Shown here: positions 33,771-39,135 of the stretch, one piece after another
Numbering within the stretch: position 1 is the stretch's first letter
Layout of the letters: the number at the start of each line of letters is the position of its first letter
Source: Staphylospora marina
GTDB taxonomy: Bacteria > Bacillota > Bacilli > Thermoactinomycetales > Thermoactinomycetaceae
Reading direction: 5' to 3'
DNA: 64,000 nucleotides
Assembly (NCBI RefSeq): GCF_003856495.1
Contig: NZ_CP034118.1
Span: forward strand, 1,716,001-1,780,000
Notes under the pieces: generated by a model
Told to the model about the DNA's origin: nothing
Databases searched by the model: none
The model's input: the letters and a program-made list of their open reading frames with translations, nothing else
Made by a program: the position numbers and the translations under genes

Positions 33771-35024
33771 TCATTGTTGTTGCGTCTTGATCTTCTCCTT
33801 GATGATCTTGACCGCATCATTCAGAGCTTGCTCCGGATTTTGCTTTCCGGTCGCGATGAAGTTGAAGGCATTGTTGATCGGCTCCCACACCTGGTTCATC
33901 TCGGCAATGTTGGGCATCGGAACGCCCATGGCGGCCTGTTTGGCAAATCCGCTCACCACCGGATCGTCCGCGATGACCGGATCGTTGATCAATTCCTTGT
34001 GCGGCGGAATTTCTCCCGTTTCCAGGAACCGCGATTTGAGCGCTTCCTTGCCGGTCAAAAATTGCATCAATTCCAGGGCCTCTTTGGGGGCTTTGCTGTA
34101 CGCGGACAGATACCAGCCTTTCACCCCGATGAACGTGCGGGCATCCTTGCCGTTCACTTTGGGAATGGGGGCCACTCCCACGTCAATGCCGGCCTGCTTG
34201 TAATCCAGCACGGCCCATGGACCGTTGATGACCGCCGCCACCTTCCCTTCCTTGAACAGACCGTTGATCGTGTCCCCTTTCAGTCCGTTCGGCAAAAGCC
34301 CTTCCTTGAACCAGCTCTCCACTTCCTTGCCGGCTTCCACGGCGCCCGCATTGTTCAGACCGATGTCGGACGGATCGTACTTGCCGTTTTCATGTTTGAA
34401 TACGTATCCGCCCTTGGCATCCACGAGAAAATGATTGAAATACAGATTGTTGATCTCAAACATGACGCCGTACTTTTTCTCGGCCGGCTTGGTGTAAGAC
34501 TTGGCGAAAGACTTCAGCTCTTCAAAAGTGGCCGGAGGATTGGGCATCAGTTTCTTGTTGTAAATGAGAGCGATGCTCTCCGTCACTTTGGGCAGACCGT
34601 ACAATTTGCCGTCGACGGTGAGCGCGGACAAGGCCGATTCATCAAACTGTCCGGTGACGGACGCATCGGGCTGGATCGGCTGGACGAGTCCCTTGATCAC
34701 CGCCGCTCCCAACTGGTCGTGCGGCCAGGTGACCAGATCCGGACCTTTTCCCGCCGGACCGTCGAGCGTCAGTTTCTCCTGTTGTTTCAATATCGCGACG
34801 GGAACCACTTCCACTTTGATGCCGGTTTTTTTCTCGAATTCAGCCGCAAGCTTCTTGGTGTGTCCCAGTTGCTTTCCATCGTCCGCATTTTCCCAAACGA
34901 CCAATTTTTCCGACTTTTCCCCGCCCGTCGTCGCCTGTTGCCGCTCCGGCGCGCATCCGGCGAGCACGCTCAGCGCCAGAGCCAGCGACATGGTTGCGGA
35001 AAGCCATTTTTTCCCCAACATCAT
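33771..35024 (-). CDS. malE: Maltose/maltodextrin-binding lipoprotein, MalE type
   Basis: 417 residues. Lipobox SVLAGC near residues 20-25; mature domain of the SBP_bac_1 fold with KLVVWENADDGKQL, DLVTWPHDQLG, AVINGPWAVLDY, ARTFIGVKGWYLSAYSK, all MalE-like. It captures maltodextrins outside the membrane for MalFG. First gene of the operon; GGGGGG precedes ATG 35024. Promoter with overlapping operators directly upstream. No malK/msmX ATPase is found in the window. Confidence 0.93.
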   Translation of the reverse strand: MMLGKKWLSATMSLALALSVLAGCAPERQQATTGGEKSEKLVVWENADDGKQLGHTKKLAAEFEKKTGIKVEVVPVAILKQQEKLTLDGPAGKGPDLVTWPHDQLGAAVIKGLVQPIQPDASVTGQFDESALSALTVDGKLYGLPKVTESIALIYNKKLMPNPPATFEELKSFAKSYTKPAEKKYGVMFEINNLYFNHFLVDAKGGYVFKHENGKYDPSDIGLNNAGAVEAGKEVESWFKEGLLPNGLKGDTINGLFKEGKVAAVINGPWAVLDYKQAGIDVGVAPIPKVNGKDARTFIGVKGWYLSAYSKAPKEALELMQFLTGKEALKSRFLETGEIPPHKELINDPVIADDPVVSGFAKQAAMGVPMPNIAEMNQVWEPINNAFNFIATGKQNPEQALNDAVKIIKEKIKTQQQ

Positions 35025-35041
35025 TGCAAGACCCCCCTTGT

Positions 35042-35057
35042 TGCGCAAACGGTTGCA
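35042..35057 (-). promoter_or_regulatory. LacI/MalR-type operator O1 in the malE leader
   Basis: TGCGCAAACGGTTGCA, near-palindromic around the central CG (GCAAAC/GGTTGC). Closely like the pneumococcal MalR operator family (GCAAACGTTTGC core). It lies between the predicted start of transcription and the malE SD. Confidence 0.6.
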
Positions 35058-35082
35058 CAGATTCGCAAAAATAAATCCATTG

Positions 35083-35096
35083 AGGAAGCGTTTTCA
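35083..35096 (-). promoter_or_regulatory. cre site at the malE transcription start
   Basis: AGGAAGCGTTTTCA agrees with cre TGNAARCGNWWWCA at 13 of 14 positions and covers about +1 to +15, the usual place for CcpA repression. Confidence 0.6.
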
Positions 35097-35103
35097 ATCC
35101 TAT

Positions 35104-35131
35104 TGTATAATCTGTCATCCCCCAATGACAA
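35104..35131 (-). promoter_or_regulatory. SigmaA promoter of the mal operon
   Basis: TTGTCA (35126-35131), 16-nt spacer, TATACA (35104-35109) on the minus strand; predicted start near 35097. Confidence 0.7.
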
Positions 35132-35162
35132 GACTTTTTTCTCAGTTCTGTAAATAATCTTT

Positions 35163-35183
35163 TTGTTGAAACCGTTTGAACAA
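35163..35183 (-). promoter_or_regulatory. Upstream palindromic operator O2 of the mal operon
   Basis: 21-bp inverted repeat TTGTTGAAAC-C-GTTTGAACAA with one mismatched pair, centred about 43 bp upstream of the -35. With O1 it brackets the promoter. Confidence 0.5.
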
Positions 35184-35346
35184 CTACAAAGAACTTTCTT
35201 TCGAAAAAGGAAGAGATCGCGCTTGCGTGGAAATAAACAGAAAAAACGGAAATCCGTTGAACCACCGTCACGGCAACCTCTCTCACGGCTTTTTTCGGTT
35301 CCCCGATCAAAGCACCTCATCCACACCTCTGAAAGGAGTCCCACCC

Positions 35347-35475
35347 ATGCCTTCGGAAATCGCGATGATGTTGAAGGAGTTGTCCGTCTGTGTGGCGTCC
35401 GTGTTCACCGCTTGGCTGGTGATCGAATTTCTGGAGTACAAAGGCTGGATCCGCTTCCATCGGGAAGATGACTGA
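35347..35475 (+). CDS. 42-residue putative membrane protein
   Basis: ATG 35347 has AAAGGAG 8 nt upstream. The product has one hydrophobic helix (CVASVFTAWLVIEFLEY) and a charged C-terminal tail (FHREDD). No family recognised. It converges on the actin-like cassette, whose terminator begins 10 nt later. The SD and clean composition argue it is real. Confidence 0.5.
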   Translation: MPSEIAMMLKELSVCVASVFTAWLVIEFLEYKGWIRFHREDD

Positions 35476-35485
35476 AAAAAAACAA

Positions 35486-35500
35486 GAGTCCCGTGGACTC
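35486..35500 (-). terminator. Terminator of the actin-like ATPase cassette
   Basis: GAGTCC/GGACTC stem followed on the minus strand by TTGTTTTTTTTC. Confidence 0.6.
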
Positions 35501-35549
35501 CCCGTTGTCTCCGGATCGCTCCCTTTATTCATGTTGCTTCTCTTCTTTC

Positions 35550-35780
35550 TCACCCGAACGGCAGGCCGCTGGAGCGAATCTCCTGCACATTCTTTCCGGA
35601 TTCCCGGCGCCGTCCCGGCACCTCCACATCGATCCATCCGTTCTGCCAGGCAAACAACAGATGTTTGACCAGATCGCCCACATTTCGGGTTTTCCTTTCC
35701 AGAAACCGGTACAGTTCCCGTTCAAGCGGATCGGTCAAATCAAACGTCACCCATACGCTTTTGCCCGTCTTCCCGTTCAT
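35550..35780 (-). CDS. Small ParR-like, ribbon-helix-helix-type protein
   Basis: 76 residues. N-terminal beta-strand (SVWVTFDLT) followed by two helices (DPLERELYRFLERKT, NVGDLVKHLLFAWQNG), the layout of RHH DNA-binding proteins including ParR, then a basic Arg/Lys tail. Starts with a 4-nt ATGA overlap at the end of the actin-like gene, exactly where ParR follows ParM in plasmid segregation operons. DNA binding is inferred from fold pattern and context. Confidence 0.65.
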   Translation of the reverse strand: MNGKTGKSVWVTFDLTDPLERELYRFLERKTRNVGDLVKHLLFAWQNGWIDVEVPGRRRESGKNVQEIRSSGLPFG

Positions 35781-36565
35781 GAAATCAGCGCCTTCCCGAC
35801 TTCGTAAAATCCCAGCACATTGGCCATCTGAGGGCTTCTGGCCGCAAAGGCATGCCGGAAATGCCCCTGCATGTGCCGCTCCAGGCGTTTGGCCATCCCG
35901 CCGATCAGCACGACCACATCATCCGAATGCCACTTCTTGGAGAGCGCGGCGGCGATCGCATCGGCCATTTCCCGTTCATTGCTCTCACGCAACGTTTCCC
36001 ATCCGATGGGCAGGGTTCCGGAATCCCGGTCAATGAACACTTTGTCTTTGAACGTGGCGTAATTGGTCGTTTTCGCCCCCACGTCGACAATTCTCACCAA
36101 CCCCGACCTTGGATCGGCGAAAAACGCCCCTCCTCCCTCGATCGTGGTATACACGCGCCGGATCCGGAAACGGGCGGTCCGTCCGTTGACCGTCACCTCA
36201 TGATCCCCTTCCAGAAGGCGCCTCACCGCCATTCGCTCCGCTTCCGTGTAATGAATGATGGGCAAGCCGGTCACGAGGTCCACGTTCCCGTTCGCCCCGG
36301 CCTGGTGGACCGCCGTGACCGTGAGGAGCAACGTTTCTTCCACCGCCTTGGTATCTTGCATGGCCTGACGGGTGAATTCTCCCTCCCGTTCCGCCAACTG
36401 TCCGACAAACCAGCGTTGACCCCGATACACCACTTCCATGTCACCTTCGAGATCCTGCCGGTAATGCCGGTTCCGCCACGCACTCACCTTGCTGGGGAAC
36501 ATGAAGGAATTGCGTTCGGTTTTCACTTTGACAAAACTGCGTCCGCAATCGACGGCTACGAGCAT
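35777..36565 (-). CDS. ParM/StbA-like actin-family ATPase
   Basis: 262 residues. Actin-fold signatures: phosphate-1 AVDCGRSFVKVK at the N-terminus, phosphate-2 IVDVGAKTTNYA near residue 165, adenosine motif VVVLIGGMAKRLE near 225. Size and motif order fit the ParM/StbA/Alp7A branch rather than MreB or FtsA. Such proteins polymerise to move plasmid DNA; this copy lies among housekeeping genes. GGAGGGG is 6 nt before ATG 36565. Cotranscribed with the small gene downstream; msrA upstream has its own terminator. Confidence 0.75.
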   Translation of the reverse strand: MLVAVDCGRSFVKVKTERNSFMFPSKVSAWRNRHYRQDLEGDMEVVYRGQRWFVGQLAEREGEFTRQAMQDTKAVEETLLLTVTAVHQAGANGNVDLVTGLPIIHYTEAERMAVRRLLEGDHEVTVNGRTARFRIRRVYTTIEGGGAFFADPRSGLVRIVDVGAKTTNYATFKDKVFIDRDSGTLPIGWETLRESNEREMADAIAAALSKKWHSDDVVVLIGGMAKRLERHMQGHFRHAFAARSPQMANVLGFYEVGKALIS

Positions 36566-36631
36566 CTGACACCCCTCCGCTTTCATGTTTACGGGGTGGT
36601 CCGCGGCGATATGCCACGGTCAAAAAAAATA

Positions 36632-36653
36632 CCGGTTCCCCCATGGGAACCGG
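36632..36653 (-). terminator. Terminator of msrA
   Basis: CCGGTTCCC/GGGAACCGG stem with a 4-nt loop and TATTTTTTTT on the minus strand. Confidence 0.85.
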
Positions 36654-36764
36654 ATTTGTCCAAGGTTGCCGGACACTCTTTCGCCTGACGCCGGGTCGTC
36701 TGACAGATGCCCCGGGGACGCGGAGATCCCCCGTTTTCGAAAGAATGTCCGCCAAGTTTGTCTC

Positions 36765-37235
36765 TCACAGGCTGCACGATCCGAGACCACGCTTTTGCAA
36801 ATAACGCTGGTGATATTCTTCCGCTCTCCAGAACGTTGACGCAGGAGTGATCTCCGTGGCGATCGGATCCTTGAAACGCCCCGACCGCTCCAATTCCGCC
36901 TTAGAACGTTCGGCTGCCTCTTTTTGTTCCTCCGTGTGCCAGAAAATGACGGAACGATACTGCGTGCCCACGTCGGGCCCCTGCCGGTTGAGCTGGGTCG
37001 GGTCATGACTGTCCCAGAACACCTGGAGAAGCTGTTCGTAGGTCACTTGTTCCGGATCGTATTCCAGATGGACCACTTCCGCATGTCCGGTGGTGTCCGT
37101 GCACACTTCCTCATACGTGGGTTGATCTTTCGTCCCGCCCATATAACCGACCGCGGTGTCCAGCACGCCCGGAATTTTCCGGAACGTTTCTTCCACACCC
37201 CAAAAGCATCCCGCACCGAAAGTTGCCTTTGCCAC
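36765..37235 (-). CDS. msrA: Peptide-methionine (S)-S-oxide reductase MsrA
   Basis: 156 residues. Catalytic GCFWG at residues 9-13, central HPTQ-like [20 protein letters not shown], and C-terminal resolving cysteine in LGSCSL. Reduces methionine-S-sulfoxide with thioredoxin. Lacks the MsrB domain. Carbonic anhydrase is 30 nt upstream, so the pair may share an mRNA. Confidence 0.96.
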
Positions 37236-37265
37236 AAAGATCCCTCCACCGATATCGTCATGTTT

Positions 37266-37829
37266 TCAAGGGTTTCTGCCGTCATCAATCAGGGTAAGTT
37301 CTCCCGTGCAGGGATCGATCACCAATCCGTGTACCATCACATCCGGAGGCCAGAGCGGGTGATTGCGGAGCAGGGAGACACTTTCCTTCACCCCGTCCTC
37401 CGCCGTGTTGCATCCGGTGAGCCATCGATCCACATCCACTCCCCGGTTCCGAAGCTTTTGCACATTCTCCGGGGGCACTCCGCGGGACCTCAGTCCGCTC
37501 AACACCGGCTCCGCGGAAAGACCGACCATTCCGCAGCCATGATGCCCGATCACCCACACTTCATCCGCCTTGAGCAACGTGACCGCGACCAGCAAACTGC
37601 GCATCACGCTGCCGTAAGGATGCGAGATGAGCGCTCCGGCCGTCTTGATGATTTTGACATCCCCGTTTTTCAGATTGAGTGCCTTGGGAAGAAGCTCCGT
37701 CATCCGGGTGTCCATGCACGAAACGATCACCAGTTGCTTGCGGGGATACTTGCCGGCCAGATAAGGCTCGTATTCCCGATTTTCCACGAACTTCCTGTTG
37801 AATGCCAACACTTCGTCCAGCCTGCTCAA
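37266..37829 (-). CDS. Beta-class carbonic anhydrase
   Basis: 187 residues. Zinc ligands in SCMDTRM (Cys, Asp/Arg pair) and GHHGCGM (His-x2-Cys). Interconverts CO2 and bicarbonate. The family type is the short Firmicutes YvdA/YtiB-like form. SD AGGAGG before ATG 37829. Confidence 0.93.
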   Translation of the reverse strand: MSRLDEVLAFNRKFVENREYEPYLAGKYPRKQLVIVSCMDTRMTELLPKALNLKNGDVKIIKTAGALISHPYGSVMRSLLVAVTLLKADEVWVIGHHGCGMVGLSAEPVLSGLRSRGVPPENVQKLRNRGVDVDRWLTGCNTAEDGVKESVSLLRNHPLWPPDVMVHGLVIDPCTGELTLIDDGRNP

Positions 37830-39061: not shown

Positions 39062-39135
39062 TGGAGCGGATGACGGGAATCGAACCCGCGCCGCCAGCTT
39101 GGGAAGCTGGAGTTCTGCCATTGAACTACATCCGC
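39062..39135 (-). tRNA. tRNA-Gly(CCC)
   Basis: Acceptor GCGGATG, anticodon stem CCAGC/GCTGG with loop TTCCCAA (CCC), T-loop TTCGATT, discriminator T, encoded CCA. Confidence 0.95.

Follow-up and report, generated by a model that had tools for sequence, protein, structure and literature searches.

A ParM and ParR-like gene pair held at one chromosomal locus in the Thermoactinomycetales, without a recognisable centromere and with a possible role in sporulation

Introduction

What does a gene pair with the layout of a plasmid segregation operon do between housekeeping genes on a bacterial chromosome? The question arises from a 64,000-nt stretch of the Staphylospora marina genome (hereafter, the window), in which a ParM-like actin gene is followed by a small ParR-like gene. 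A preliminary description had left two options, a domesticated plasmid remnant or a chromosomal filament system with another role. We compared the pair and its orthologues, here called group A, with other ParM relatives in 42 genomes of the order Thermoactinomycetales, and the second option is favoured since the pair is old, under selection and stays at one locus. What was observed comprises the gene order, the conservation, the purifying selection, the missing repeats and a common promoter-like element. The best explanation, to which we give about an even chance, is that the pair is a domesticated ParMR filament system that lacks a recognisable centromere and probably serves in sporulation.

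Results

Organization of the gene pair

Both genes lie on the minus strand, which the preliminary description did not state. The parM-like gene occupies 36565-35777 and encodes 262 aa plus a stop, and the parR-like gene occupies 35780-35550 and encodes 76 aa plus a stop; the two share the 4-nt ATGA overlap reported before. Within the genome, the parM gene was located at C1:1751780-1752565, on a 2.706 Mb contig beginning with dnaA. A longer parM reading frame of 269 aa is possible from an ATG at 36586, although a GGAGGGG ribosome site precedes 36565.

The neighbours named earlier, msrA and mal, were found as msrA upstream of parM and malE downstream of parR, the latter beyond a convergent 42-aa ORF (35347-35475, plus strand), which is hydrophobic and has its ATG preceded by an AGGAG site. 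One terminator-like hairpin lies 3' of msrA, upstream of the putative parM promoter (36632-36653, minus strand), and another, followed by a T-run, lies 3' of parR at 35502-35484 (minus strand), where a terminator had been proposed. Because of these hairpins, the parMR pair may form its own transcription unit; two such matches in this stretch, against a mean of 1.8 in shuffled sequences, are about what chance gives. An Rfam search of positions 34900-37300 returned no matches, and visual inspection of the ORFs between 33.0 and 39.5 kb revealed no integrase or rep gene, in line with the earlier reading. The accompanying remark that no tRNA attachment site is visible has to be amended, as a tRNA-Gly gene (anticodon CCC; 39062-39135, minus strand) lies 2.5 kb from parM, although the genes in between are syntenic in relatives.

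The actin-like protein belongs to the ParM type

The 262-aa protein matched Pfam ALP_N with an E-value of 5.9e-32 (111.4 bits against a cut-off of 26.3) and PHROG 691, a partition protein, with an E-value of 1.6e-50. The sequence search of the PDB placed the ParM of pCBH first and AlfA next (7.9e-06). The AlphaFold model was moderate (pLDDT 69.9, low at residues 65-72, 103-105, 143-154 and 164-194), and Foldseek ranks 1 to 13 were taken by ParM, AlfA, Alp7A, Alp12 or CorM and by nothing else, with AlfA first. VIA-align gave CorM of Anabaena (9rmi) as the top match, with Z 16.0 against 14.9 for the next. The assignment to ParM/StbA-type actins made in the preliminary description was thus recovered by Pfam, PHROGs, the PDB sequence matches and the Foldseek ranking of the predicted structure. 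An MreB or Hsp70 identity was rejected, given VIA-align scores of at most 10.8 for MreB and 9.6 for Hsp70 and the thirteen ParM-type Foldseek leaders; FtsA was absent among the best 50 matches in both the Foldseek and the VIA-align lists.

Residues D6 and G8, D161, G163, K165 and T166, and G222 and G223 are invariant in ten of ten aligned ParM sequences, and the motifs DCGRS, DVGAKTTN and GGMA are what we take to be the actin nucleotide-site motifs. Since these motifs are kept and purifying selection is strong, ParM presumably still polymerises. Given the ALP_N E-value and the fact that both genes are kept together in relatives, the operon-like pairing is far beyond chance.

The ParR-like protein is recognised by its layout and its tail

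The sequence of the 76-aa protein can be read as a strand, two helices (predicted at residues 18-30 and 34-46), a variable linker and a near-invariant tail. The tail, I-R-x-S-G-L-P-F-G, holds six of the 11 invariant columns of the alignment, and in the window it reads EIRSSGLPFG (residues 67-76; 35553-35582, minus strand), the best-conserved segment of the protein. The window and all 16 relatives compared share the core SGLPF. Related tails close the proteins of two sister groups, ASG[MI]PFD in group B and GG[ML]P[VI]D in group C, with G[LM]P[FV] in both. By analogy with R1 ParR, the C-terminal peptide of which was solved bound to ParM (PDB 4a62), the tail is the likely hook of ParR on ParM.

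The N-terminal end is mostly basic in group A, and the ribbon-helix-helix (RHH)-like layout is kept. After the strand F, 15 of 17 group A proteins have D, the other two being L032 with H and L046 with N; all seven group B and all five group C proteins have N. Apart from one weak PHROG match to a family without an assigned function (E-value 0.0054), the profile libraries searched gave the protein no family name. The monomer model was poor (pLDDT 61.5, two helices, the strand absent) and a fold search with it returned no meaningful match, so the RHH claim rests on the sequence pattern and on homology of position. The earlier proposal of an RHH partner therefore stands for position, conservation and strand-helix-helix sequence layout, and it gained neither a library name nor a fold match.

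Distribution, synteny and selection

Some ParM relative was detected in 31 of the 42 genomes, and group A orthologues, 64-77% identical, in 18. By family, group A was present in five of 23 genomes of f1, nine of ten of f3, the single genome of f4 and all three of f5; the three genomes of f6 and the two of f2 had none. The window's own family (f1) accordingly has 18 of 23 genomes without group A. A contig scan with two group A peptide patterns found at least nine loci, in Polycladospora, Baia, Thermoactinomyces sp. DSM 45892, Croceifilum, Marinithermofilum, Kroppenstedtia, Marininema and Melghirimyces; the scan is not exhaustive, because it missed several carriers known from the genome search. 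The genera named here are mycelial or filamentous spore formers. All 42 genomes carry the sporulation gene spoIVA, and since 24 of the 42 lack group A, the pair is dispensable for sporulation in general.

The small gene lies directly 3' of parM in the window, in all 16 relatives first examined and in a 17th (L257), and a gene for a PGPGW protein lies within 5 kb in 15 of the 16 relatives and in L257. The joint conservation and synteny on which the preliminary description had staked the pairing were therefore found, at a conserved chromosomal locus. In a midpoint-rooted tree of 46 rows, group A formed one clade with support of 94/97, just under the usual 95 mark, and it appeared as one change in 96% of bootstrap trees. 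Groups B and C each formed one clade, and the members of group A clustered by family. Nine plasmid and phage relatives were placed in another part of this tree.

The dN/dS values of parM were 0.010-0.059 in seven of eight group A pairs, the eighth (window-L032) being saturated, and those of parR were 0.012-0.34. The closest plasmid and phage relatives, which do not exceed 36% identity, are ParM/StbA or partition genes, for the most part from Bacillota; a scan of viral contigs found no relative. Taking together the orthologues at the same locus, the purifying selection, the distance of the plasmid and phage relatives and the empty viral scan, the group A pair is an old chromosomal resident, neither recent nor decaying.

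The orthologous locus was inspected in 19 of the 24 group A-negative genomes. OMT, PGPGW and msrA were together in 14 of these 19, with parMR missing, and none of the 19 had a ParM or ParR match better than E 0.11. Two group A-negative genomes, G001 and G014, show msrA followed by malE, as in the window. Additionally, further, more divergent ParM-ParR pairs occur in several genomes of the order (L055, L063, L064 and L067), with upstream repeats at L055, L063 and L064 and without them at L067; G025 has four ParM-like matches.

Centromere-like repeats are found in groups B and C and missing in group A

The sequence upstream of each parM was scored for repeats against dinucleotide shuffles, with a bar of z at least 2.6. 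None of the 18 group A loci reached the bar, the highest values being 2.5 (L032) and 2.1 (the window), whereas 11 of 12 group B and C loci did (exception L049), as did 15 of the 20 loci of the order outside group A (exceptions L049, L062, L065, L066 and L067). A 9-kb scan (-4 to +5 kb) placed the segment with the top repeat score directly upstream of parM in all three B/C loci scanned; among 10 of the 17 group A loci, it showed no consistent repeat cluster, and none had its top segment directly upstream. The plasmid and phage relatives passed the bar in their 200 nt upstream in only four of nine cases, five giving no strong signal. Because these five, and five of the 20 non-A loci, also lack the signal, the missing repeats alone do not prove that a centromere was lost.

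According to the preliminary description, the 199 nt upstream of parM contain no parC-like iterons. This holds for direct repeats, of which no family was found at 36566-36764, and the wider search across homologues that it suggested agrees in group A. Nevertheless, an inverted repeat that it did not mention is present between msrA and parM: an imperfect 23-nt repeat (83%; 36661-36760) with arms at 36661-36683 and 36738-36760, 54 nt apart. A whole-genome search with the 112-bp region around it found only itself, making it a single genomic copy. The upstream of L032 also carries an inverted repeat.

The same genome holds a group B pair, whose actin (C1:2647593-2648375) is 53% identical to the group A ParM. 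Its operon continues with a 91-aa partner and a 125-aa gene without a Pfam match, and 58 kb separate it from the contig's far end; as the contig starts at dnaA, the locus would be near oriC if the contig is circular. In five of six other genomes with group B (L050-L054; L049 is the exception), the same neighbours flank the pair, and group C lies between them in two of three f3 genomes (L057 and L058, not L056). The group B upstream in L048 has two 21-nt iteron copies with 90% identity, and an exact search with this 21-nt pattern found two copies in the whole genome, both in the B operon. Palindromes GTCNNGAC and TTGTATATACAA stand upstream in others of these loci. The segment G000:C1:2647393-2649044 (L048 7394-9045) is thus a group B parMR with strong parC-like iterons, at a locus shared by two families. 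The group B ParR ends in SGMPFDF and, like its group A counterpart, the pair is kept at one chromosomal locus in six of seven group B genomes (not L049); unlike group A, it retains parC-like iterons and the third, 125-aa gene. We regard group B as a candidate for a separate chromosomal centromere system. To judge from the missing centromere-like repeats and the changed DNA-facing strand of ParR, a parC site next to the operon has probably ceased to be the cargo of group A.

A sigma-E-like element precedes group A parM

A promoter-like element lies about 48 nt before group A parM and resembles the promoters of sigma-E, the mother-cell sporulation factor, with a CGTATACA-like part. In the window, it comprises a -35-like element, GCATATC, at 36608-36614 (minus strand) and a -10-like element, CGTAAACA, at 36586-36593 (minus strand), the latter a weak match whose register is uncertain by 2 nt. 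With all 17 group A upstreams aligned by their ribosome sites, a match to CGTATACATG at nine or ten of ten positions was seen in ten, against none in 49,810 control positions, for a consensus that was derived from the same group A sequences on which it was scored. The spoIVA orthologues of the order show [TA]CATA[AT] about 19 nt before CATATATT.

Group A was also scanned with a two-block matrix trained only on the upstreams of spoIVA, spoIIIAA, spoIID and ylbJ and seeded with a sigma-E consensus. For each family, 30 loci were sampled from the 38-42 genomes over the cut-off, and those used were 30 for spoIVA, 29 for spoIIIAA, 30 for spoIID, 30 for ylbJ and 29 for gpr, which served as a control. 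The best matrix site fell at -51 to -46 in 14 of 17 group A loci, and 12 of the 17 exceeded the 95th percentile set by 178 control upstreams. In four leave-one-gene-out trainings, 14-15 of the 17 best sites fell there and 9-11 passed the percentile; 20 null trainings on random control upstreams gave 0-8 and 0-4, and training on gpr gave three and none. Median scores were 7.4 for groups B and C and 6.6 for the gpr upstreams, both near the 6.4 of the controls. These promoter counts, like the repeat counts, are not independent, because the loci are related.

The element is uneven among loci. L033-L035, L040 and L043 show a strong match, L039 and L045 have no element, and L046 has its best site elsewhere; the window's own site is weak, with rank 0.275 when any position is allowed and 0.028 when the position is fixed. 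In the group A copy of G039, a matrix whose training loci lacked orientation correction gave a 12.1-bit site at -47. Matrices built from spoIID alone or ylbJ alone placed 4 and 8 of 17 at the position and did not recover the element, and true sigma-E genes, when held out, passed the 95th percentile unevenly (29/30 for spoIVA; 9/29, 8/30 and 4/30 for the others). Consensus strings for eight sigma classes, which gave sigma-E 3 of 17 at the 5% level, are too crude to discriminate. The site yielded no sigma-70-type promoter, which says little because 0.4 would be expected by chance.

According to the accessible text of two reports, sigma-E promoters have a -35 with ATA and a -10 shared with sigma-K (PMC3789822), with a 12-bp gap between wider blocks (PMC517825). 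The features scored here, a -35 with ATA, a CATATAAT-like -10 and sigma-E spacing, fit the group A element, with a weak match in the window, and suggest that group A is transcribed from a sigma-E-type promoter.

Three further observations concern these upstreams and the sporulation genes. At L032 7586-7631, upstream of 7899 in L035 and at 36570-36598 in the window, a complementary C-rich arm mirrors the parM ribosome site across the -10; in these f1 loci, it is a candidate operator or a candidate hairpin hiding the ribosome site. The spore-protease gene gpr is broken in two in G002, G009, G010, G015, G018 and G021, its parts lying about 3.5-11 kb from each other on a single contig (in opposite orientation in G009), and in G017 the parts are on two contigs; this looks as though an element interrupts the gene, possibly one excised at sporulation time, like skin. 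The spoIID frame of G023 (C1:3469100-3470068) is broken by one TGA.

Discussion

Competing explanations

That the pair is a recent plasmid or prophage remnant, intact by chance, is very improbable and largely refuted. The identity of the closest plasmid and phage relatives and the tRNA-Gly gene near parM would suit it, but those relatives are too distant (at most 36%), the viral scan was empty, the ORFs inspected between 33.0 and 39.5 kb showed no integrase or rep gene, and orthologues of 64-77% identity stand at the same locus in four families with parM dN/dS of 0.010-0.059. A role in DNA segregation, in which group A ParR would bind a centromere at another site, either chromosomal or on a resident plasmid, with ParM pushing it as a back-up to ParABS, agrees with the RHH-like layout and basic N-terminal end of ParR, with the imperfect inverted repeat upstream of parM in the window, with the paralogous B operon keeping parC-like iterons near oriC, and with the five of nine plasmid and phage relatives that likewise lack a strong signal. 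AlfA-type systems can keep their site elsewhere, which also speaks for it. The paralogues, however, have their iterons directly upstream, the -4 to +5 kb scan of 10 of 17 group A loci showed no consistent cluster, and the strand N of all group B and C proteins is D in 15 of 17 of group A; we consider this role unlikely.

A vegetative cytoskeleton for cell shape or polarity, like FcmB-FcmC or CorM-CorR, with a promoter likeness that is coincidental or reflects stationary phase, strikes us as similarly improbable. These bacteria also grow as filaments, CorM is the top structural match (Z 16.0 against 14.9), and a domesticated ParM/ParR shaping a filamentous bacterium is on record (PMC12645912, in its accessible part). 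Against this stand the promoter-like element at one position in 14 of 17 loci, the lack of group A in 18 of the 23 genomes of f1, the family of the window, and a score of 26.8 bits against NCBIfam FcmB, whose cut-off is 300.

The favoured reading, a domesticated filament system, would run as follows. An ancestral parCMR partition operon would have been captured on the chromosome before several families of the order separated, and inherited since at one locus. Its ParM would still form filaments, driven by ATP, and the small ParR partner would hold the filament or capture its ends through the SGLPF tail, the parC site beside the operon having been lost or changed. Transcription would start from the sigma-E-type mother-cell promoter about 48 nt before parM, from which it would follow that the filament acts during endospore formation, speculatively by moving or shaping the forespore. 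A narrower version, in which a sigma-E-dependent mother-cell ParM filament with a ParR-derived cap does mechanical work on the forespore, such as positioning, engulfment or release in Thermoactinomyces-like bacteria, is more tentative and rather doubtful, if less so than the segregation and cell-shape alternatives. In that version, a plasmid segregation motor would have lost its centromere and been rewired to development, while its sister near oriC would keep one.

Relation to known systems

The AlfA-AlfB system is plasmid-borne and has its own centromere. In length, AlfA of Bacillus subtilis pLS32 (275 aa; PDB 6bqw, 6f95) is similarly short to the group A ParM (262 aa). Measured against parCMR operons, a ParR gene adjoins parM here, whereas neither parC iterons nor carriage on a plasmid or phage was found.

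A precedent in organization is FcmB-FcmC of Nostoc punctiforme, which, in the accessible part of its report, is a chromosomal ParM-type actin followed directly by a ParR-like partner, derived from a partition system, kept in filamentous cyanobacteria and considered by its authors nearest to AlfA (PMC12645912). Its role there is the rod shape of a filamentous cyanobacterium, and that part of the report draws no link to sporulation (PMC12645912). The FcmB family (NCBIfam NF052678) covers 373 positions. CorM of Anabaena, whose PDB title states that it was solved in the presence of its partner CorR (9rmi), superposes on the group A ParM with an rmsd of 2.7 over 152 aligned residues at 29% identity, with a chain of 336 residues against 262 here.

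Functional chromosomal ParMs are described in Clostridia in the accessible text of PMC12270681. Dh-cParM1 and Cb-cParM are chromosomal with a ParR gene, Dh-cParM1 is syntenic across its genus, the cParMs formed filaments and hydrolysed nucleotide in vitro, and Cb-cParR binds the adjacent parC; group A, in contrast, has no recognisable parC alongside. The cParM structure 8x1i is only distantly similar to the group A ParM (E 0.00079), and the main text of PMC12270681 does not mention Thermoactinomyces, Laceyella or Desmospora.

Significance

Chromosomal ParMs are thus already known, whereas the proposed link to sporulation appears new: the literature listed for ParM together with sporulation or Thermoactinomyces included no paper on a sporulation ParM or on a ParM of this order. 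Domesticated ParM systems were discovered only recently, with cyanobacterial cell shape among their jobs. A single genome here carries two sister operons, one with and one without centromere-like repeats and both at conserved loci, which allows a direct comparison. If the sporulation promoter is real, this would be a sign that a plasmid-derived actin-like filament takes part in endospore formation, and the role of chromosomal ParMs could be addressed by expression timing alone.
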